From NCBI RefSeq assembly GCF_000504205.1, contig NZ_AZAJ01000001.1, forward strand, positions 1,648,879-1,712,878: a DNA stretch of 64,000 nt, given 5' to 3'. Shown here one piece after another: positions 4,866-26,986 of the stretch. The notes beneath the pieces were generated by a model, which was not told where the DNA came from, made no database searches, and saw only the letters and a program-made list of their open reading frames with translations. How positions within the stretch are numbered: the first letter of the stretch is position 1; the number at the start of each line of letters is the position of its first letter. Made by a program: the position numbers and the translations under genes. The stretch comes from Methanolobus tindarius DSM 2278. Its GTDB lineage: Archaea > Halobacteriota > Methanosarcinia > Methanosarcinales > Methanosarcinaceae.

Positions 4866-6344
4866 ATGTTCTCTATCACTTCTTCTAAAATGCGTTCAAT
4901 TGATGCTAATTGCGCATATCTTGGCTTAAGCCCTGTGCAGCTTATGGAAAATGCCGGTGCTGCAATTGCCCGGGAAATTATGTCTAAAATAAGGTATGGT
5001 AAAGTTCTTTTTGTAGCCGGCAGGGGAAATAATGGAGGAGATACCTTTGTTGCTGCACGTCATCTGGCAATGAACAGGAACTATGAAGTAAAACTGATAC
5101 TTCTTGGTCACTCATCTCGTATAAGGACGGAAGAATCAAAACAGAACTTTTCTCTTCTCAGGTACAGCGGTCTTACAGAACTGATAGAAATTGCAGATTC
5201 AAAAGAACTTGAAAAATACCCTGGCTGGAAAAACAATGATATTATTGTTGACGGAATCCTGGGTTCCGGAATAAAAGGTGCTCCCAGAGAGCCAGAATCA
5301 ACTGCAATTGACCTGATAAATTCTTCTAATTCATACATTATTTCTGTAGATTCTCCTTCGGGATATGGTATGGATGGTGCAGAAGTTGTCAAAAGCGTGA
5401 TTGCAGATTTGACAATCACCTTCCACAGGATGAAAACAGGTCTTGAACTTCCAGATTCTGAAAAATACACCGGCCTGGTAAAAGTTGTTCCAATAGGTGT
5501 ATGCAAAGATGCTGAAGAATATGTCGGCATGGGTGATCTTATATCCCTATCACGCAGAAACAGCGAAGCTCATAAAGGTAATTCAGGCCGAGTTCTTGTT
5601 ATCGGCGGAGGTGCATATTATGGTGCTCCGGCCCTTGCAGCCATGGCAGCGCTTCGAACCGGTGCTGATATCGTAACAGTTGCTGTGCCGGAAAATGTTG
5701 CCGATACAGTTGCTTCGTTTTCACCAAATCTTATTGTAATACCACTTGAAGGTGACAGGTTAAATCCTTCAAATATTCCGGTTCTTGAAACTCTCCTTGA
5801 AACTCATGATGTTGCTGTAATTGGTCCTGGTCTTGGCAGAGACTCTGCAACTCTGGAAACGGTGGAGCAACTTCTTCCTATTTGCAGGAAAGCTGTTGTT
5901 GATGCGGATGCGCTTTTTGGATTGAAATTACCCGTAAAAAGTGAGGGTAAATTCATTCTGACACCGCATTCTGCTGAATTCTCATGTCTGTCAGGGTCCT
6001 CTGTTCCAAAAGAACTTGATTCTAAAAAGGCTGTTGTAGGCAGCTTTGCTTCTGATAAAGCCGTCACAGTTATTCTGAAAGGAAAAATTGATGTCATTTC
6101 CGATGGTTCAGTCACCCGGCTTAACAGGACAGGTAATGCCGGAATGGCGGTTGGTGGCACGGGAGATGTTCTTACCGGAATCATCGGTGCCCTCTTTGCA
6201 GTCAATGATGCGATAGATGCGGCTTTATGTGCGGTTTTCATCAGCGGCGCAGCCGGAGACCTTGCATTTCAGGAAAAAGGAAACGGTTTGCTTGCGACAG
6301 ATATAATTGATCGGATTACCGATGTTATATCAGGTGTATTATAA
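4866..6344 (+). CDS. nnr: Bifunctional NAD(P)H-hydrate epimerase / ADP-dependent dehydratase
   Basis: Repairs hydrated NADH/NADPH. The N-terminal YjeF_N domain (about 1-215) epimerises NAD(P)HX and shows GRGNNGGDTFVAARHL. The C-terminal ribokinase-like domain (about 225-490) dehydrates the S form and ends with the nucleotide-binding motif GGTGDVLTGIIGAL. At 492 residues it has the full length of fused bacterial/archaeal Nnr. It is divergent from the DHH gene and begins an apparent operon: its TAA overlaps the ATG of the next small gene (TAATG), then moaC follows. Confidence 0.92.
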   Translation: MFSITSSKMRSIDANCAYLGLSPVQLMENAGAAIAREIMSKIRYGKVLFVAGRGNNGGDTFVAARHLAMNRNYEVKLILLGHSSRIRTEESKQNFSLLRYSGLTELIEIADSKELEKYPGWKNNDIIVDGILGSGIKGAPREPESTAIDLINSSNSYIISVDSPSGYGMDGAEVVKSVIADLTITFHRMKTGLELPDSEKYTGLVKVVPIGVCKDAEEYVGMGDLISLSRRNSEAHKGNSGRVLVIGGGAYYGAPALAAMAALRTGADIVTVAVPENVADTVASFSPNLIVIPLEGDRLNPSNIPVLETLLETHDVAVIGPGLGRDSATLETVEQLLPICRKAVVDADALFGLKLPVKSEGKFILTPHSAEFSCLSGSSVPKELDSKKAVVGSFASDKAVTVILKGKIDVISDGSVTRLNRTGNAGMAVGGTGDVLTGIIGALFAVNDAIDAALCAVFISGAAGDLAFQEKGNGLLATDIIDRITDVISGVL

Positions 6345-6526
6345 TGGGGCAGGAAAGCAGAAGAATTAGTGTGGATATTGAAAGAAAGTGGATACGCATC
6401 ATTGTCAGTCATGGCAGGGATGAGGAAATACTTAAACTTTCAATTGATGAGGCTCGCAGTCTGAAAGAACAACTAAATACTACTATTGAGGATTACCTGC
6501 AGAGACAAAATATTAGAATTGATTAA
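6344..6526 (+). CDS. Small conserved-looking hypothetical protein
   Basis: A 60-residue, charged, soluble protein with no signal peptide or cysteines. It starts with an ATG overlapping the nnr stop by 1 nt (translational coupling) and ends 13 nt before moaC. The middle is strand-like (KWIRIIVSHG) and the C-terminal half is a predicted amphipathic helix. No family recognised. Position in the nnr-moaC operon and its coupled start make it likely to be real. Confidence 0.65.
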   Translation: MGQESRRISVDIERKWIRIIVSHGRDEEILKLSIDEARSLKEQLNTTIEDYLQRQNIRID

Positions 6527-6539
6527 AAACGGTGATTAA

Positions 6540-7016
6540 TTGGAAGCTACATTCACACATATCGAGAACGACCGCGCGGTCATGGTAGACATCAGTAAAA
6601 AGGATATCATTGTGAGAAAGGCAATAGCTTCCGGGGAAATAGTTCTTAATGATGCAACCATTGAGAAGATTCGCTCGGGTAGCGTTGAAAAAGGAAATGT
6701 ATTCTCCACCGCGCGCGTGGCTTCAATTCTTGCAGTAAAAAAGACACCGGAACTTATTCCTATGTGTCACCAGATTCCAATTACCAAGGTGGATGTGGAC
6801 TTTTCAATTCATGGGAATATTGTCCGTGCAACTGTAGAGGTGCGTTCCGTTGGAAAAACAGGTGTTGAGATGGAGGCGCTTACAGGTGTCTCAGTTGCCC
6901 TGCTGACTGTGTGGGATATGGTCAAGTCTGCAGAAAAAGACGAGACTGGTAATTATCCTGCTACCGGAATTCAAAATATCAAGGTTCTTGAGAAAGTCAA
7001 AATGAACCAAAACTAA
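6540..7016 (+). CDS. moaC: Cyclic pyranopterin monophosphate synthase MoaC
   Basis: Converts 3',8-cyclo-7,8-dihydro-GTP into cyclic pyranopterin monophosphate in molybdopterin/tungstopterin synthesis. The 158-residue protein carries the family motifs MCHQIPITKVDV and MEALTGVSVALLTVWDMVK and has normal length. The start codon is TTG at 6540, preceded by GGTGATTAA. The cofactor is needed for formylmethanofuran dehydrogenase and for the tungsten aldehyde oxidoreductase encoded at 39 kb. Same operon as nnr and the 60-residue protein. Confidence 0.95.
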   Translation: MEATFTHIENDRAVMVDISKKDIIVRKAIASGEIVLNDATIEKIRSGSVEKGNVFSTARVASILAVKKTPELIPMCHQIPITKVDVDFSIHGNIVRATVEVRSVGKTGVEMEALTGVSVALLTVWDMVKSAEKDETGNYPATGIQNIKVLEKVKMNQN

Positions 7017-7106
7017 TGTATTTGAGGGGTGCATTAGGAAGCATTCAAATTACACTGATCAATTATCATATTTAAAAAACAACTAAATCTTAAAGAGGTA
7101 ATTTAT

Positions 7107-7955
7107 TTGAAAATTATTGGAGGACCAGCATCCCAGGCTCTTTCATCAAGGGTTGCGAGAGAACTTAACATTGAGCCTACTGTTTGTGACTTCACAAGGT
7201 TCCCTGACGGTGAACTGTATTCACGCATACTTGATGAGGACGTGGATGAAGTTACTATTATCCAGAGTACAACAACGGATTCTGATCTTGTTGCATTATT
7301 ACAGCTTATTGACGCCTGCGAGGATTCACCTGTCATCAATGTGGTTATCCCATACATGGGATATGCCAGACAGGATAAAAAGTTCAAAACCGGTGAACCA
7401 ATAACTGCAAGGGCTATTGCAAGGACAATTAATGCAGACAGGATTTTTACAGTAAATATACATGAGGCAAGTGTTCTGAATTATTTTAATGCTGATGCAT
7501 TTGACCTTGATGCTTCACGCCTGCTGGGTTATCATATAAGATCACTGAACCTGTGCAATCCTCTCATTGTCTCACCTGATAAGGGCGCAATTAATCTTGC
7601 AGAGAACACAGCAGCCGATGTAGGACTGGAATATGATTATCTTGAAAAGACAAGGCATTCCGGTGATTCAGTTACTATCAAAGCAAAAAATGTCGATGTG
7701 ATGGACAGGGATATCATAATTATTGATGACATGATCGCAACCGGTGGAACCATGGCAGAATCTATCAAACTGCTGAAATCCCAGGGAGCAAAAGATGTCT
7801 ATCTTGCATGTGTACACCCGGTTCTTGCAAGAAATGCGGTGCTTCGCCTGTACAATGCAGGGGTAAAAGATATTATAGCTACCGACACAATAGAAAAGGT
7901 ACAGAGTTGTGTCAGTGTGGCACCCCTTATAGCCAATGCTTTAAGAAGTATCTGA
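7107..7955 (+). CDS. prs: Ribose-phosphate pyrophosphokinase
   Basis: Makes PRPP from ribose 5-phosphate and ATP for nucleotide, histidine and tryptophan synthesis. The 282-residue archaeal-size protein shows the FPDGELYSRI region, the flexible-loop region around YARQDKKF, and the PRPP-binding signature DDMIATGGTMAES near the C-terminus. It starts at TTG 7107, after AGAGG 9 nt upstream. A 90-bp gap separates it from moaC, so it may have its own promoter. Confidence 0.95.
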   Translation: MKIIGGPASQALSSRVARELNIEPTVCDFTRFPDGELYSRILDEDVDEVTIIQSTTTDSDLVALLQLIDACEDSPVINVVIPYMGYARQDKKFKTGEPITARAIARTINADRIFTVNIHEASVLNYFNADAFDLDASRLLGYHIRSLNLCNPLIVSPDKGAINLAENTAADVGLEYDYLEKTRHSGDSVTIKAKNVDVMDRDIIIIDDMIATGGTMAESIKLLKSQGAKDVYLACVHPVLARNAVLRLYNAGVKDIIATDTIEKVQSCVSVAPLIANALRSI

Positions 7956-9903: not shown

Positions 9904-10137
9904 TTATTTATTATCTTGTAGTTTTTCCAGTTCTGACATGACTTTTTTTGTATATACCTGATACACACCTTCATCATCATATACGACAACTTCCTTGTTG
10001 ATGGTGGCATGATTTGCATGGACTACCAGAAATGGCCAGAGTTCGTTGCTCTCCGGGTCCCGCTGGTTTTTCATATTGAAAATATCCTCAGAGGTGCTTA
10101 ATGAAATCCTGTGCATATTTTCGGTTATACGGGTCAT
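9904..10137 (-). CDS. Hypothetical protein
   Basis: A 77-residue soluble protein convergent with the TPD gene, with no recognised family. The middle, WPFLVVHANHATINKEVVVYDD, is strand-rich and the C-terminus is a charged helix. No cysteines or signal peptide. Codon use is ordinary for the neighbourhood, and no frame on the other strand competes well. Its promoter would lie in the 208-bp gap shared with lysS, which is transcribed in the opposite direction. Confidence 0.6.
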   Translation of the reverse strand: MTRITENMHRISLSTSEDIFNMKNQRDPESNELWPFLVVHANHATINKEVVVYDDEGVYQVYTKKVMSELEKLQDNK

Positions 10138-10200
10138 ATTAAACTGAACAGTAAATTTTTATTAATACCTTTCGTGTTGCAATTATATGAGGTGGGAATC

Positions 10201-10313
10201 TGTCCGCAAACGGACAAAAAACTCTTATAAGATCCCTTTCAGGAATTTTGTCTTAAGCAAAGATTATAATAGTAACAATCATCTAAGGTTACTGACTCCG
10301 GAGCATCCGGACA
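10201..10313 (+). promoter_or_regulatory. Structured leader/promoter region upstream of lysS
   Basis: TGTCCG (10201-10206), loop CAAA, CGGACA (10211-10216) is a perfect hairpin. A second hairpin CCGGA-GCA-TCCGG lies at 10298-10310, and its 3' side contains another CGGACA (10308-10313) that could pair with the first TGTCCG. Between them is the 10-bp palindrome TCTTATAAGA (10223-10232), which could also be the TATA box. Whether the first hairpin is transcribed depends on the unknown start site. lysS begins at 10346. Confidence 0.4.
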
Positions 10314-10345
10314 TTACTATATTCTCATCATAAATCGGTGAAATC

Positions 10346-11944
10346 ATGGCAGATATTACACATTGGGCAGATGTCATCGCAGACGAGGTGCTGGCAAAAG
10401 GCAAGAAGCACCTTGTTGCAACAGGTATCACACCCTCAGGTCACATTCATATTGGTAACATGCGCGAGGTCGTAACTGCAGATGTAGCATTCAGGGCTCT
10501 TGAAGATAAAGATGCTGATGTCGAGTTCATCTACATTGCAGACACATACGACCCATTAAGAAAGGTCTATCCTTTCCTGGACGAAAGTTATGCGCCCCAC
10601 GTTGGCAAACCACTTTCTGAAATTCCATGCCCATGCGGCAAACACAAGAATTATTCCGAACACTTCCTTGAGCCTTTCCTCACAGCCCTTGAACACCTGG
10701 GAATACACCCAAAGGTCTACAGGGCAGATGAGCTCTACAAAGAAGGTGTCTACGTAGAAGCTATCAAGCAGGCTCTTGTGAAAAAGGATGAGATCGCAGA
10801 AATCCTGCAGAAGAAATCTGGCAAGACTCCGGTAGATACATGGAACCCGTTCAATCCTATATGCAATGACTGTGGAAAGGTAAACACCACCACTGTAAAA
10901 GGCTTTGATATCGATGCTGAGACTGTGGACTATGAATGCTCATGTGGAAGCAAGGGTACAGTCCCGATGAAAGGCGGTGGAAAACTTACCTGGCGTGTTG
11001 ACTGGCCTGCAAGGTGGAAGGCACTTGGAGTTACAGTTGAGCCATTCGGTAAGGACCATGCTTCAAGAGGTGGTTCATATGATACCGGTGTTGCTATTGC
11101 CAAAGAGATATTTGGTTATGAGGCACCACATCCGATAGTCTATGAATGGATTATGCTGGGTAAGAAAGGTGCAATGTCATCGTCTACAGGTGTTGTAGTT
11201 TCAATTGCAGATATGCTCAAGGTGGTGCCACCTGAAGTATTGCGTTACCTTATCATCCGTACAAAACCTGAAAAGCATATCAGGTTCGATCCTGCATTAC
11301 CCCTGCTCACACTTGTGGATGAGTTTGAACGCCTGCACTCAAGCGAGAAGGCAACAGATTATGACAGGAGAATGATTGAGCTTTCACACGCAGCAGGACT
11401 TTGCCACACAGATATTCCATTCAAGCACATGACAACAATCTACCAGGTTGCTGCAGGTGACTTTGATAAGATAATGAATATCGTAAAGAGAGCAGGATAC
11501 GACACCAGCAACGAGAAATGCATACGCGAACTTACTGACAATGTCGGCAACTGGCTTGAGATGTACGCTCCTGATAATGCAAAGTTCAGTGTCCAGGAAG
11601 AGCTTCCTGTAAGTACTGCACAGCTTAACGATCTCCAGAGAGCTTTCCTCAGTTCATTGTCATCCATTCTTGACAAAAGCGATGAGCTTAACGGTGAGGA
11701 CTACCACAATCTTGTATACTCTGCAAAGGAAGCAGGTTCTGAACTGAATACAATGATGGCTGAGTCACTAAATGTTGATGCAGAATCACTTGAAGTAAAT
11801 CCAAAGGAACTATTTAAGGCGATATATGTTTCAGTGCTGGGGCAGCCTTCAGGTCCAAAGGCAGGCTGGTTCCTTTCATCACTTGAAAAGGATTTCCTCG
11901 CAATGCGCTTTAAGGAAGCAGCAGAGTATAAGCCCTCATCCTGA
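10346..11944 (+). CDS. lysS: Class I lysyl-tRNA synthetase
   Basis: Charges tRNA-Lys with lysine. This is the class I (Rossmann-fold) type found in many archaea, not the class II enzyme of most organisms. HIGH is seen as GHIHIGN (about 31-37) and KMSKS as AMSSSTG (about 279). A Zn-ribbon-like set of cysteines (CPCGKH; CNDCGK; CSCGSKG) occurs between about 94 and 200. The 532-residue length is normal. Some Methanosarcina carry both classes plus pyrrolysyl-tRNA synthetase, so a second LysRS may exist elsewhere. The methyltransferase gene starts 2 nt after the stop. Confidence 0.95.
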
Positions 11945-22273: not shown

Positions 22274-22930
22274 CTAGGATTGTATCATATGACTACTCGT
22301 ATTGCTTTCAAGACTACACAGGGAATTTTGACAGGTTCCGAAATTAAATCCCACAAGGAAACTTCCTATGTGATCCTTACTCTTGATGCCCAGTTTTGAT
22401 TTAATGTATTCATCAGTCAATTTAGATGGTGATGCTATCATAGCTTCAGAAACAAATGCCAGTTTTTCAACTTCAGGGCATGGTTTTGCATCGATTACTA
22501 TTTCCGGGGCCCTAAATGAATACTTAATATCTTTGAATTTTTTACGATCAATAACTATGTTTCCAAATACCCGATATTTGCCGGACTTTTTCAGCCTTTC
22601 AATTTCAGCGGCATCAGTGATGTCTTCTCCTATAACTTCTCCCCGATGGACAATTTTCAAGTTATTTTCAGGCCATTCGTAATCCCGGTTTGTTATGAAA
22701 GATATCAAAAAGTCTGATCCAAGAGCCTGTTTCATGCCTACGTTGTTCTTTATACCAAAACAACATGAACTATTCTGCTCATCTTTTTCCTCAAGTCCAA
22801 TGATCTCTTTTCTATCATATTCAGTAATCAAAAGCGCTTTTTCGATACCTTTTTTGTTGTAGATGGCAGAAATGGCTTTTTCGACAACATCTTGCTTTGA
22901 AAATTGTATCCCACTGTCAAATATATTCAT
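22274..22930 (-). CDS. Hypothetical protein
   Basis: A 218-residue soluble protein with no recognised family. The first half reads as an alpha/beta fold (KALLITEYDRKEIIGLEE; DFLISFITNRDYEW; LKIVHRGEVIGEDI). The second half is basic, and the tail (GTCQNSLCSLESNTSSHM) is low in structure. Cysteines occur as a CC pair and two near the end, without a standard metal motif. It lies beside the IS-split hydrolase gene but is separated by 520 bp of non-coding DNA. Confidence 0.65.
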   Translation of the reverse strand: MNIFDSGIQFSKQDVVEKAISAIYNKKGIEKALLITEYDRKEIIGLEEKDEQNSSCCFGIKNNVGMKQALGSDFLISFITNRDYEWPENNLKIVHRGEVIGEDITDAAEIERLKKSGKYRVFGNIVIDRKKFKDIKYSFRAPEIVIDAKPCPEVEKLAFVSEAMIASPSKLTDEYIKSKLGIKSKDHIGSFLVGFNFGTCQNSLCSLESNTSSHMIQS

Positions 22931-23349
22931 TTTCCCACCAAGTCAAGTAAAGTTGTTTTGATGATGAATGTTTAGTATTGGATATAAATATATTGGATAT
23001 GCATAATGTGTCTATGTAAATTGGGTAATGACACAGGTGTTTACAAGTTTACTTGTTCAGTGGTTGGATAAACTCACGTAAGCCTGTAGGGGGAAAGTGA
23101 TTCTTTGAGTATATTTTTTGAAAATACAGTCGTCTTTCTTTTTCTTACGTATATGATTACGGCAAACATTCCTTTCATTTCAGATTTATGGGCGCTGGGC
23201 TGAAAATGTCAACACTGGAGATTACGTTTCTTCAGAGAACAAAGAACTCTTGAAATCTCTATTAATTAATAGAAACGTTGAAAGAAGCTGTGAATAATTA
23301 TATCATATATACTCTTTTATTTATGGTGATGTCTACTAATTAAATTTTC

Positions 23350-23371
23350 ATTTATGAAGTACTTCATAAAT
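23350..23371. promoter_or_regulatory. Perfect 22-bp palindrome
   Basis: The half-site ATTTATGAAGT is followed without spacer by its exact inverted copy. Perfect symmetry with no loop favours a protein-binding site over an RNA hairpin. It lies 420 bp upstream of the hypothetical gene starting at 22930. Confidence 0.5.
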
Positions 23372-23413
23372 TACTCTTATTAATACTCTCAGCCTTTCTT
23401 TTAATTAAAATAG

Positions 23414-23439
23414 TACAGGTCCCTTATGAGGGACACTGT
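23414..23439 (-). terminator. Terminator hairpin after the Ntn-hydrolase / small-gene unit
   Basis: GTCCCT (23419-23424), loop TATG, AGGGAC (23429-23434); with one bulged base the stem extends by four more pairs (ACAG/CTGT). It lies about 16 nt after the stop of the 50-codon minus-strand gene and is followed on that strand by a T/A-rich run, consistent with termination of that transcript. Confidence 0.6.
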
Positions 23440-23454
23440 TACTAATGCCAGTTA

Positions 23455-23607
23455 TCAAACATTTTTCATCAATTTCTGAGCAACAGCTTCACCTGCTTCT
23501 TTTGGTTTATCCAATAATTGCTCAAAATGTCTTTTTTCGTATGACTTCGGGAAATAATTTCTTTCAATTTCTGATAATGTCCTATAGTTTCTTTTATTCT
23601 TTGCCAT
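23455..23607 (-). CDS. Small basic protein, partner of the Ntn-hydrolase gene
   Basis: A 50-residue basic protein with no recognised family. It begins MAKNKRNYRTLSEIERNYF and is predicted mainly helical, rich in Lys, Arg and Glu. The ATG at 23607 is preceded by a strong GGAGG with 8-nt spacing. The start overlaps the last 14 nt of the Ntn-hydrolase gene, so the two were translationally coupled. A terminator hairpin directly after its stop supports its status as the last gene of the unit. With the insertion upstream, its expression is probably reduced or depends on a new promoter. Confidence 0.65.
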   Translation of the reverse strand: MAKNKRNYRTLSEIERNYFPKSYEKRHFEQLLDKPKEAGEAVAQKLMKNV

Positions 23608-23999
23608 TTTCTTTCCCTCCATTGTATTTATTGATGAAGTATTTTGGATTTAATTCTGATTTAAAGTAATGTTTCCTCTTTATCCAGATGAAACCATCAC
23701 CTTTCGAAATAACAACAACATCTATGGGTCCACCCACAGTTTCTGCATCGAATGAAATTTTTCTTTTAAATGAAGTCAGGTTCACAAGAGACTCTGCCAT
23801 TGAAGCAAGTTCATCTTTAGGTAACACAGAAACAACATTTGTTATAGGACTCACATAATGTTCCTGTTGTATTCCATTTAAACTGGAGACAAATCCCCCT
23901 ATTATTTTTTCAACATGATTATTTAGTTCTTCCCGGTATTTATCTGTTTCAGAAGTATGCTGCTTTTTCTCTATAATAGTTTCTGTGAAATCTTTTAGA

Positions 24000-24007
24000 G
24001 AATTATC
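24000..24007. repeat. 8-bp target-site duplication, left copy
   Basis: GAATTATC directly left of the element; the identical octamer flanks the right end at 25282-25289. Eight bp is the usual duplication size for ISL3-family insertion. Confidence 0.9.
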
Positions 24008-24033
24008 GGATCTCCTCAAGATTGAGTGGGTAA
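24008..24033. repeat. Left terminal inverted repeat of the IS
   Basis: Begins GGATCTCCTCAAG and ends GTGGGTAA. Compared with the inverted right end, 20 of 26 positions match. Confidence 0.88.
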
Positions 24034-24064
24034 TTTAATATTCTGTTCATCCAATCCATATTGG

Positions 24065-25273
24065 ATGGACGATAAACTCTTGATTCAAATGGCTCTGGGA
24101 ATAACCCCTCCATGGTATGTGAAAGACATTGATCTTAATGTTTCTAAGAAAAGAATGGATATTTATCTAGATTTTACCAAGGGAACGAAGTTCCCTTGCC
24201 CAGTTTGCAACAAACTGTGTGATCTCCATGATACCAAAGAAAAAGTATGGAGACACCTTGATTTCTTCCATCATGAAACATACATTCATGCACGAGTTCC
24301 CCGAACAAAGTGTGATGGAGATGATGTAAAACTTGTTGAAGTTCCATGGACAAGACAAAATACTGGATTTACATTATTTTTCGAAGCACTAATCGTTGCA
24401 ATGTCCAAAGAAATGAGTGTTTCTTCAATTGCTGAATTGATCAATATTCATGAAAATTCTGTATGGATAATTCTAGCTCATTATGTTGAAGAAGCCAGAG
24501 CAAAGATGGATCTCTCTGAGTTAGATACTATTGGAGTAGATGAAATATCTGTCAAAAAAGGTCACAGCTATGTGACCTTGTTCTATGATCTACATCAATC
24601 AAGAGTAATTCATATTGAAAATGGAAAGAAAAGAAGTGTTTTCAAGAACTTCAGGGAAGTTCTTTCCAGAAAAATAGACCCTGATAATATCAAGTATATT
24701 TCAATGGACATGTATCCTGCTTTTAGGGGTGGAGCAAGGGAATATTTCCCAAATGCTAAGATCGTTTACGATAAGTTCCATATTGTCAAAATGATGAATG
24801 ATGCAATTGATAAGGTTCGAAGAAAGGAGTATCAAACAAATAAAGATCTGGGTAAAACGAGATTCATGTGGTTGAAAAATCCTGAAAATCTATCGGATAG
24901 GGAAATAGCTAAGATTCGATCAATCAAAGATTTGGATACTAAAACAGCAAAAGCTTACAGATTTAAGCTTGGACTTCAACGTCTGTGGGATATAAAAAAT
25001 ATAGAGGTAGCGAGGGAATATCTTGACAAATGGCATTATTGGGGAACACATAGCAACATCAAGGAAATTATCACATTGGCCAAGATGATTAAAAGAAATT
25101 CTCATGGGATATTGGAATCAATCAAACAAGGTATCAGCAACGGTGTTGTTGAAGGATTGAACAACAAAATTAAAACTGCTTTTAAGAGATCATATGGATT
25201 GAAGACTGAGAAGTGTAGGAATACAATGATATTCTTGATGGCGGGTAAACTTCGTTTACCCACACGATGTTAA
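24065..25273 (+). CDS. ISL3-family transposase
   Basis: A 402-residue DDE transposase. The N-terminus has a zinc-finger-like CPVCNKLCDLHD, then a helix-turn-helix (VSSIAELINIHENSVWIIL). The DDE catalytic set is visible in GVDEISVKKGHSYVT, YISMDMYPAFRGGAREYFP and NGVVEGLNNKIKTAFKRSYG. ATG 24065 is chosen because the in-frame GTG at 24026 lies inside the terminal repeat. The ATG is buried in a perfect hairpin, CATCCAAT-CCAT-ATTGGATG (24048-24067), which could limit expression. The stop codon lies inside the right repeat. Confidence 0.93.
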   Translation: MDDKLLIQMALGITPPWYVKDIDLNVSKKRMDIYLDFTKGTKFPCPVCNKLCDLHDTKEKVWRHLDFFHHETYIHARVPRTKCDGDDVKLVEVPWTRQNTGFTLFFEALIVAMSKEMSVSSIAELINIHENSVWIILAHYVEEARAKMDLSELDTIGVDEISVKKGHSYVTLFYDLHQSRVIHIENGKKRSVFKNFREVLSRKIDPDNIKYISMDMYPAFRGGAREYFPNAKIVYDKFHIVKMMNDAIDKVRRKEYQTNKDLGKTRFMWLKNPENLSDREIAKIRSIKDLDTKTAKAYRFKLGLQRLWDIKNIEVAREYLDKWHYWGTHSNIKEIITLAKMIKRNSHGILESIKQGISNGVVEGLNNKIKTAFKRSYGLKTEKCRNTMIFLMAGKLRLPTRC

Positions 25274-25281
25274 AGAGAACC
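25256..25281. repeat. Right terminal inverted repeat of the IS
   Basis: Its reverse complement begins GGTTCTCTTTAAC and ends GTGGGTAA, matching the left end at 20 of 26 positions. It contains the transposase stop codon. Confidence 0.88.
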
Positions 25282-25289
25282 GAATTATC
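25282..25289. repeat. 8-bp target-site duplication, right copy
   Basis: GAATTATC, identical to 24000-24007. Deleting one copy plus the element restores the host reading frame. Confidence 0.9.
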
Positions 25290-26278
25290 TAAAAAAGACA
25301 CACTAAATTCAAACATTGAAGGATCAATTCCTCTCATGAAAATATCTACCATTTCTCTTTGTGCAAATGGTGCAACAACACTATTATTTTCAAGAGAAAT
25401 CTTTTCTTGACGTTCAACTTCATACTTTAGTTTGTTGCATATTATGCACTCAATAAAAAAGGATTTGAAAGAAGGAAATATCTCTTCTTCTCCAAAACCT
25501 GCTACAACTATACCAGAATATGAGTTATTTTTAATCTCAGGAAACTTTGAAAATACCCACGGAACAATTTCTTCCATTATTCCTATAGTTTCTTCATCAA
25601 GAGGAAACTCTTCAAAAACATCAGATATTATTTCTTTAATACTTGCTTCATATCTTTCAAGTATCATTTCTTCCAGATTGTCTGGAAATCCCGGACATTT
25701 TTTAGCCACTTCCCATAATTCATATTGAGAGTCCACAATTTCTGTCATAAGATCCATAAGCACATCTTCATCAACAACTTCTTCTTCATTGATTTTTTTC
25801 TGAATCTCAGCGAAGAGTTCTCCTTTGATTGAATTGAAATAGGCGTAAAGTTGAGCTTTAAACATTTGTTCCTGGATTTCTTGTGTAAACAGCATTTCAT
25901 TTTCATCCAAAAAATCAATGAAGTCATCTGCATACTCTTCCAGTGTATTGTATGTTTTATTTCCATTCTTTGCCCTGTATATTTTGATTATAGTCTCCCA
26001 GGGAATCCCCATAAAACTCGCATTTCCATAAATCATTATTCCAACAGGACATTTATCCGACAATGAGAACAGCTTGTTAGCTGATGCAAATATTTTGTCA
26101 CGAGAAAAGCCAGAAATAGTGACAGCACTATCAGCAGCTAGTGCAATCGCATCTTTATTCATTATTACTATTTCAGAAGTCATTTTTACTCTACAGTTAT
26201 CTTAAATTAAACAACTATAAATGTTTTTTTAATTAACTTCATCAAAAGAAATATAAGTCTTACCTTGATTTCTCATCA

Positions 26279-26986
26279 TCAAACCAACAACACCGCAATA
26301 ACCCCGGCCAGAAACACACCATCAAAAGTTCCCGCGCCACCAATACTAACCACAGGCGCTCCCAGTTTTGTAATAGCACGCATGTTCAGCAGGTCCGCCC
26401 CTATCAGAGTACCTAAAGTGCCGCTGATGTAGGCTACTGCGAAGATGAGGTCATGCTGAATGCCGGTGGTGTAGACCACAATAATGGAGCTCAAAGCAGC
26501 CGCAACTGGTGGCAGGAGTGCGGGAGAAACGATTCCCACACCTTTAACAGGTCTTGCAACTGATTTTGTGATAATGGCAACCATCAGGGTTGCGTAGAGA
26601 ACGTAAACTGCAGAATCCGGGAAAAGTCCAAGCAGGTATACCGAAACAATAGTTGGTATCAGGGCACCGCCTACGTTGATAGCTACTGTTGTTCTGGTTT
26701 TGTGAGTTTCCTTGAAAGGCACCCGATATGAAACTCCAAAAATCTTCACATATTTGTTATTCTCAATCGGGACTTCAGTTTCAAGAGTTCTGAGAGGGAT
26801 ATTGATACTGCTTCCAATAAGGGATGCGAGAAGCAGGATAAGAGCATCGTTCCATGAGAATCCGATTTTGCTGAAAGCGCTGCTAACCAGCCCGTAAAAG
26901 AGCACGGAAATACTAAACGCCAGCACAAAGGCTAATATGATGGTGAAAACCAATTTTAAAGGATTATAGAATATCCGATGCCTCAT
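26279..26986 (-). CDS. DUF1614-family membrane protein
   Basis: A 235-residue polytopic protein with about seven membrane spans. Family features are SSINIPLRTLE after the second span and the glycine-rich C-terminus GADLLNMRAITKLGAPVVSI-GGAGTFDGVF. DUF1614 is widespread in archaea and some bacteria; function unknown. It is the first gene beyond the AT-rich accessory stretch, where base composition returns to normal. Confidence 0.83.
   Translation of the reverse strand: MRHRIFYNPLKLVFTIILAFVLAFSISVLFYGLVSSAFSKIGFSWNDALILLLASLIGSSINIPLRTLETEVPIENNKYVKIFGVSYRVPFKETHKTRTTVAINVGGALIPTIVSVYLLGLFPDSAVYVLYATLMVAIITKSVARPVKGVGIVSPALLPPVAAALSSIIVVYTTGIQHDLIFAVAYISGTLGTLIGADLLNMRAITKLGAPVVSIGGAGTFDGVFLAGVIAVLLV

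Follow-up and report, generated by a model that had tools for sequence, protein, structure and literature searches.

The 64,000-nucleotide stretch of Methanolobus tindarius DSM 2278 DNA analysed here (the window) carries, cut in two by an insertion sequence, the gene of a proteasome-like Ntn-hydrolase together with a small basic partner gene. The explanation that we favour, with a confidence falling just short of even, is that the pair is a mobile two-component Ntn-protease (or ligase) module for virus defence or inter-virus competition, in which the partner serves as a docking regulator. What the analysis shows is the fold class, the conservation of residues, the obligate pairing, the selection acting on the genes, their mobility and their genomic contexts; the function is proposed from these. 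The features of the window on which the argument draws are the following:

26183-23594, minus strand: Ntn-hydrolase gene, whole split span, two open halves around an ISL3 element
25282-26183, minus strand: 5' part of the Ntn-hydrolase gene, 98% identity to residues 1-302 of the M. bombayensis protein
24008-25281, plus strand: ISL3-family insertion sequence of 1,274 bp with exact ends, interrupting the Ntn-hydrolase gene
24026-25273, plus strand: ISL3 transposase ORF (Pfam DDE_Tnp_ISL3, 9e-67; NCBIfam transpos_ISL3)
23594-24007, minus strand: 3' part of the Ntn-hydrolase gene, with the end of insertion 2, helix H4, the ETVGGPIDV strand and the last core strands
23455-23607, minus strand: small basic partner gene of 50 codons, its start overlapping the last 14 nt of the enzyme gene
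23119-26265: segment missing at the syntenic site of the same-genus genome G022 (L150), which takes in both genes with a tail, and the insertion sequence that came later
26279-26986, minus strand: conserved anchor gene for a 235-aa membrane protein, found in all 26 same-genus genomes of sufficient completeness
22274-22930, minus strand: 218-aa gene on the far side of the insertion spot, adjoining the anchor in G022

The sequence-only reading had joined the two halves into one restored protein of 435 residues, and an intact relative bears this out. The enzyme of M. bombayensis DSM 7082, the nearest named relative found, is a 435-aa ORF that starts with Met-Thr (6001-7308 of locus L014), is 98% identical to the first half in the window, and has a small ORF overlapping its end. 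The 5' part in the window contains the Met-Thr start, the catalytic residues, helical insertion 1 and one of the two 8-bp target duplications, GATAATTC, which bound the ISL3 element at 25282-25289 and 24000-24007. Eight near-identical full-length copies of this element, the window copy included, and two more at 91-93% are found in the genome, which suggests recent transposition activity. Because of these eight copies the breakage of the enzyme gene also looks recent, in agreement with both of its halves still being open. Against M. bombayensis, whose enzyme gene is 90-93% identical to the window copy at the DNA level, dN/dS is 0.041 and 0.045 for the two enzyme halves and 0.11-0.15 for the small gene, with 0.087 and 0.11 for two flanking genes. 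As far as sequence can tell, the enzyme and the small gene were both under purifying selection until recently, and the module of this genome is inactivated by the ISL3 insertion. Copies that are frameshifted, truncated or devoid of a start were also seen in other archaea (L008/L012, L011/L013, L015, L004, L010 and L006), part of which may be draft-assembly errors; repeated inactivation, if real, would point to a gene that is costly or of use only under certain conditions.

A proteasome-like Ntn fold had been proposed for the protein, with structure prediction set beforehand as a test. All fold work used the natural intact M. bombayensis protein, for which AlphaFold (43 sequences) gave a model with a pLDDT of 88.5 and a pTM of 0.85. 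When this model was compared with the PDB using Foldseek, each of the top matches was either a proteasome subunit, as in the case of 1ryp_K (E 7.9e-5, probability 1.00), or Anbu, and the best viral structural match was a phage protein named proteasome beta. The overall TM-scores are modest (mostly 0.23-0.28 by query length, about 0.4-0.56 by target length), as is expected when insertions make up about 40% of the query. A single-sequence search of the PDB with the enzyme returned nothing, a 43-sequence profile gave weak proteasome matches mixed with helical-bundle noise, and residues 2-34 of the family profile align, with a weak E, to residues 1-33 of mature yeast beta1. We consider the Ntn/proteasome-like fold of the enzyme, as modelled, to be well supported.

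The predicted elements run in the order S1-S4, H1 (62-73), H2 (81-94), four inserted helices (101-134, 139-158, 170-189 and 197-212, all before the strand at 223), strands between 223 and 274, H3 (276-312), an inserted helix (319-359), H4 (362-382) and the strands 393-399 and 403-408. The acidic middle of the enzyme is modelled as a helical insertion; this insertion 1 (about residues 95-215) has a mean net charge of -9.6 and is negative in 50 of 52 copies. The C-terminal part, earlier described as a region of unknown nature, was rejected as an extra domain, given that in the AlphaFold model the last two strands complete the Ntn core. Residues 387-413 of the L014 protein, ETVGGPxDV...G..W..RK.YF, are among the most conserved stretches of the family and offer an easy search handle.

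The proposed active site, a Met-Thr start with Asp at 17 and Lys at 36 (18 and 37 when Met is counted), is conserved across homologues. Thr2 follows Met in 106 of 107 full starts, with Ser in the remaining one, a count that leaves out one mis-parsed fragment frame. An alignment of 52 sequences shows no variation at Asp18 and Lys37, nor at Ser19, Gly224, Gly229, Gly231, Asp394 and Trp406. At position 53, the putative counterpart of the oxyanion-hole glycine (Gly47), 39 of the 52 sequences have Gly and 9 have Asn. The absence of a propeptide, read from the Met-Thr start, stands as an observation but not as a peculiarity, because, proteasome beta and HslV apart, members of the superfamily have none (Fuchs, Alva and Lupas, 2021; PMC8665760).

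In 2021 some 22 proteasome-like subfamilies entered the literature with hardly a hint of what they do. Six PMI subfamilies were reported (PMC8665760). PMI-4 (Proteasome homolog with Multiple Insertions 4) has its insertions after H1/H2, at the pore-loop site, and between H3 and H4, and occurs in phages, Firmicutes, Proteobacteria, Bacteroidetes and Euryarchaeota, an occurrence that sets it apart from PMI-3 (PMC8665760). In the AlphaFold model our enzyme has both insertions, and the distribution found here covers the same phages, Firmicutes, Proteobacteria, Bacteroidetes and Euryarchaeota. The enzyme fits PMI-4 by these features and by distribution rather than through a comparison with the reference sequence HDY66466.1. 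Both share the proteasome-like core, the N-terminal nucleophile, the lack of a propeptide and the long insertions; PMI-4 as published has neither a partner gene nor an informative context, genomic contexts suggestive of PMI function having not been found (PMC8665760), whereas the enzyme described here has a partner. PHROG 5990, of unknown function, matches the enzyme over its full length (residues 1-424, E 2.7e-126). The family is therefore already known, as PMI-4 by features and as PHROG 5990, though uncharacterised. An alignment query retrieved 164 relatives from viral contigs and a single-protein query none. Searches of Pfam, NCBIfam and PADLOC found a family for neither the enzyme nor the partner; in PADLOC the first half, the second half and the small protein of the window all lacked a match, and against PHROG the small partner has no family of its own (best E 0.09). 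Neither a function of the enzyme nor anything on PHROG 5990 came out of the literature searches, and the obligate partner and the mobile-element habitat (beyond phage occurrence) appear to be new, no earlier report having been found within an incomplete coverage of the literature.

Among better known relatives, the proteasome beta subunit and HslV have the fold and the Thr1-Asp17-Lys33-type residues in common with the enzyme, which differs from them in being about twice as long, lacking a propeptide, being carried by mobile elements and having a small partner, and in insertions likely to hinder ring stacking. A compact 20S proteasome or HslV subunit with a propeptide was considered and rejected on the 435-aa length, the Met-Thr start and the two long insertions; the host genome also encodes ordinary proteasome subunits (two PF00227 matches). 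Anbu (5nyw), among the best structural matches and also free of a propeptide, is compact, with a coiled-coil helix at its C-terminus and neither of the two insertions. Connectase, a proteasome-like ligase of methanogens (PMC8665760), is likewise archaeal and carries an insertion, and is monomeric, as the enzyme may be; but its two-helix insertion lies at S3/S4 and it has no H1/H2. Membership of the connectases was rejected, since the model of our enzyme contains both H1 and H2, with the insertion beyond them.

The partner had been described as a 50-codon gene that starts within the last 14 nt of the enzyme gene behind a ribosome site, and its ATG at 23607 is indeed preceded by GGAGG; a longer, 55-codon start is open at 23622. 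The same overlap of 14 nt was found in other archaeal copies. A terminator had also been placed after the small gene, where a terminator scan found none. The expectation that the small gene would stand beside homologues was confirmed by inspection in 55 of 56 non-redundant loci from archaea, bacteria and phages (enzymes less than 80% identical). An ORF of 45-85 aa lies within 40 nt of the enzyme stop in 52 of these 56 loci, compared with 74 of 214 other long ORFs of the same loci taken as controls (Fisher p 4e-16, spurious ORFs being counted too, which leaves the exact odds rough). The four exceptions comprise two loci with a 34-35-aa ORF, one in which the partner overlaps further into the enzyme gene, and Mesorhizobium L023, the sole locus without an obvious partner, where the enzyme has a longer basic C-terminus. 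A search of 394 genomes from the phylum gave seven strong partner matches, each directly beside the enzyme gene and none standing alone. When 10,403 small ORFs were ranked with a profile of archaeal and similar partners, further partners came out on top (best new E 9e-4). The pairing is well supported by these sequence comparisons, and we regard the small gene as a genuine partner; since the two genes are usually closely spaced or overlapping, they are probably translationally coupled. A divergent enzyme without a clear ATG-Thr start (L121/L140, G379) is followed by a different, 115-aa gene. That a chance small ORF merely sits next to a decaying large homologue of no particular function is scarcely credible: the broken window copy and the several broken copies in archaeal draft genomes would suit such a view, which is contradicted by the conserved position in 55 of 56 loci, the purifying selection on both genes and their strict co-occurrence.

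Partners are 34-85 aa long (median 58) and basic in 54 of 65 cases, and where the enzymes share less than about 40% identity, that of their partners drops close to what shuffled sequences give. The partner evolves very fast; what persists is chiefly a Phe-Pro motif and the helices at the C-terminus. The motif, an aromatic residue, a hydrophobic residue or Asn, and Pro, occurs in 26 of 59 partners compared with 8.2 ± 2.7 in shuffles, a significance that is overstated because the motif was picked after viewing the sequences. Conserved islands in the drifting sequence are FPKS and, in archaeal copies, D/N-P-x3-G. AlphaFold predicted the 55-aa partner alone as three helices with moderate confidence (pLDDT 76.8, pTM 0.43), a model uninformative on binding. 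An obligate, short partner with such islands would also suit a role as substrate or modifier, a connectase-like enzyme cutting the partner at its motif and passing all or part of the partner on to another protein. Connectase provides the precedent of a methanogen proteasome-like ligase (PMC8665760), and the helical insertion after H1/H2 might act as a specificity cover. We hold this explanation to be unlikely, considering that the connectase insertion lies elsewhere in a protein lacking H1/H2, that the partner motifs vary across bacteria, and that a target protein has not been identified.

The opposite charges of insertion 1 and the partner hold on average, and no correlation was found when covariation of the two charges was looked for. 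A fast-evolving basic partner next to a strongly acidic insertion, in a two-gene unit sporadically distributed on mobile elements, would be compatible with an addiction module of the toxin-antitoxin type, in which a harmful Ntn protease is inhibited by the partner and the pair stabilises prophages or plasmids, with no specific anti-phage role. This seems to us rather improbable: constraint on the enzyme gene is strong (dN/dS 0.04), the copy at L023 lacks a clear partner and no toxicity is known. As toxin-antitoxin modules can also serve defence, there is overlap with the defence or inter-virus competition reading that we prefer.

Two of 27 same-genus genomes carry the module. The spot downstream of the anchor gene is variable in Methanolobus relatives (L147-L161), where HTH-peptidase, HsdS-like, nucleotidyltransferase-like and other genes were recognised from translations judged by eye. 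PADLOC identified a complete type I R-M system beside the M. bombayensis module, a type II R-M pair at L136 and a PDC-S37/Hhe-like gene at L139, with an HmaB match also among the archaeal neighbours. As a control, 55 other window genes gave only a few generic matches and none to R-M models, a small comparison. Many of the archaeal neighbours are housekeeping genes. A DUF3800 protein lies within about 2 kb of the module both in the archaeal locus L137 (3179-3928, judged by eye) and in Ruegeria L025 (10255-10950, annotated).

The bacterial carriers of the module are temperate phages, streptococcal satellites and plasmids. It lies directly after an HTH repressor and before recE, recT or integrase genes at L110, L111 and L113, on the opposite strand between Q and the lysis genes at L109 and L112, after the lysin at the prophage end at L018, and at or near satellite ends at L016, L017 and L028. 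In E. coli the enzyme was found in 22 of 5,426 complete genomes, always on the chromosome, and the five regions examined are all prophages. L109, with the enzyme gene at 10001-11284 and a small ORF downstream of it, and L110 each hold an intact pair of E. coli. PHROG scans of the neighbours showed CI-like repressors to be the commonest upstream and Q antiterminators among the commonest downstream. This frequent position, along with HTH-plus-peptidase regulators nearby, would agree with a protease of lysogeny control or phage development that degrades, for example, a repressor, an antirepressor or a structural protein of its own element. We give little credence to that role, since unrelated phages carry the module as separate cargo, at many positions that bear no relation to one another, and the archaeal chromosomal sites have no phage genes among their listed neighbours. 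The prophage, satellite, plasmid and restriction-system contexts fit the proposal of an accessory-region module for conflict or defence, as far as gene neighbourhoods can indicate. Defence reservoirs have been described in prophage and satellite hotspots, one of them between cI and integrase (Rousset et al., 2022; PMC9122126). Both that cargo and our module occupy variable prophage or satellite cargo spots; a proteasome-like component is present in the module and in none of the defence systems described in the literature compared, PMC9122126 included.

If the defence or inter-virus competition reading is right, removal of Met would expose Thr1, which with Asp17 and Lys36 would form the active site on the alpha-beta-beta-alpha core. 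The helical insertions (about 95-215, strongly acidic, and 319-359) would replace the ring-stacking surfaces of the proteasome; PMI insertions have been argued to prevent proteasome-style stacked rings (PMC8665760), and those of the enzyme probably do so too. We infer the binding of the partner, the choice between proteolysis and ligation, the trigger and the target as follows. The partner would dock on the enzyme through its Phe-Pro segment and C-terminal amphipathic helices, and once docked would hold, aim or release the enzyme's activity. Infection might be sensed via the variable small protein or the enzyme insertions, after which the enzyme would cut (or join) a protein of the phage or of the host inside the infected cell. 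Prophages, phage satellites and plasmids carry the pair as cargo, as do archaeal hotspots, and it would most likely help its carrier against other viruses. Counted against this reading are the lack of a PADLOC match to the enzyme, the lack of an informative context in the published survey (PMC8665760), the housekeeping archaeal neighbours, the small size of the PADLOC comparison, the partner and insertion charges that do not covary, and the non-strict glycine at position 53. It also counts against the reading that genes for virulence, fitness and lysogeny control travel in prophages as well.

One of the larger proteasome-like subfamilies gains an obligate partner gene and a mobile-element habitat that includes E. 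coli prophages; that habitat and the partner make a direct test possible in a laboratory strain. A bolder version, in which a proteasome-derived immune enzyme, a Thr1 Ntn hydrolase or ligase set by an obligate fast-evolving docking peptide and spread across Bacteria and Archaea by prophages, satellites and plasmids, constitutes an unrecognised anti-virus or inter-virus system and the first role for the PMI class, is conceivable but doubtful in our judgement. Were the anti-phage role true, proteasome relatives would join the enzymes of prokaryotic immunity and a small partner may switch or aim them; were the enzyme a ligase, it would provide a new protein-modifying tool.

On several rhizobial plasmids the enzyme gene lies near genes of ubiquitin-like systems: multiubiquitin and ThiF (E1-like) in Mesorhizobium L023 (4733-9437), and multiubiquitin, ThiF (E1-like), DUF6527 and a ClpP-like protease in the Rhizobium plasmids L026 (5267-11423) and L027 (8001-14210). 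The proximity to multiubiquitin and ThiF possibly means that these genes and the enzyme gene share an accessory locus, or that the enzyme is linked in function to the ubiquitin-like systems of bacteria.
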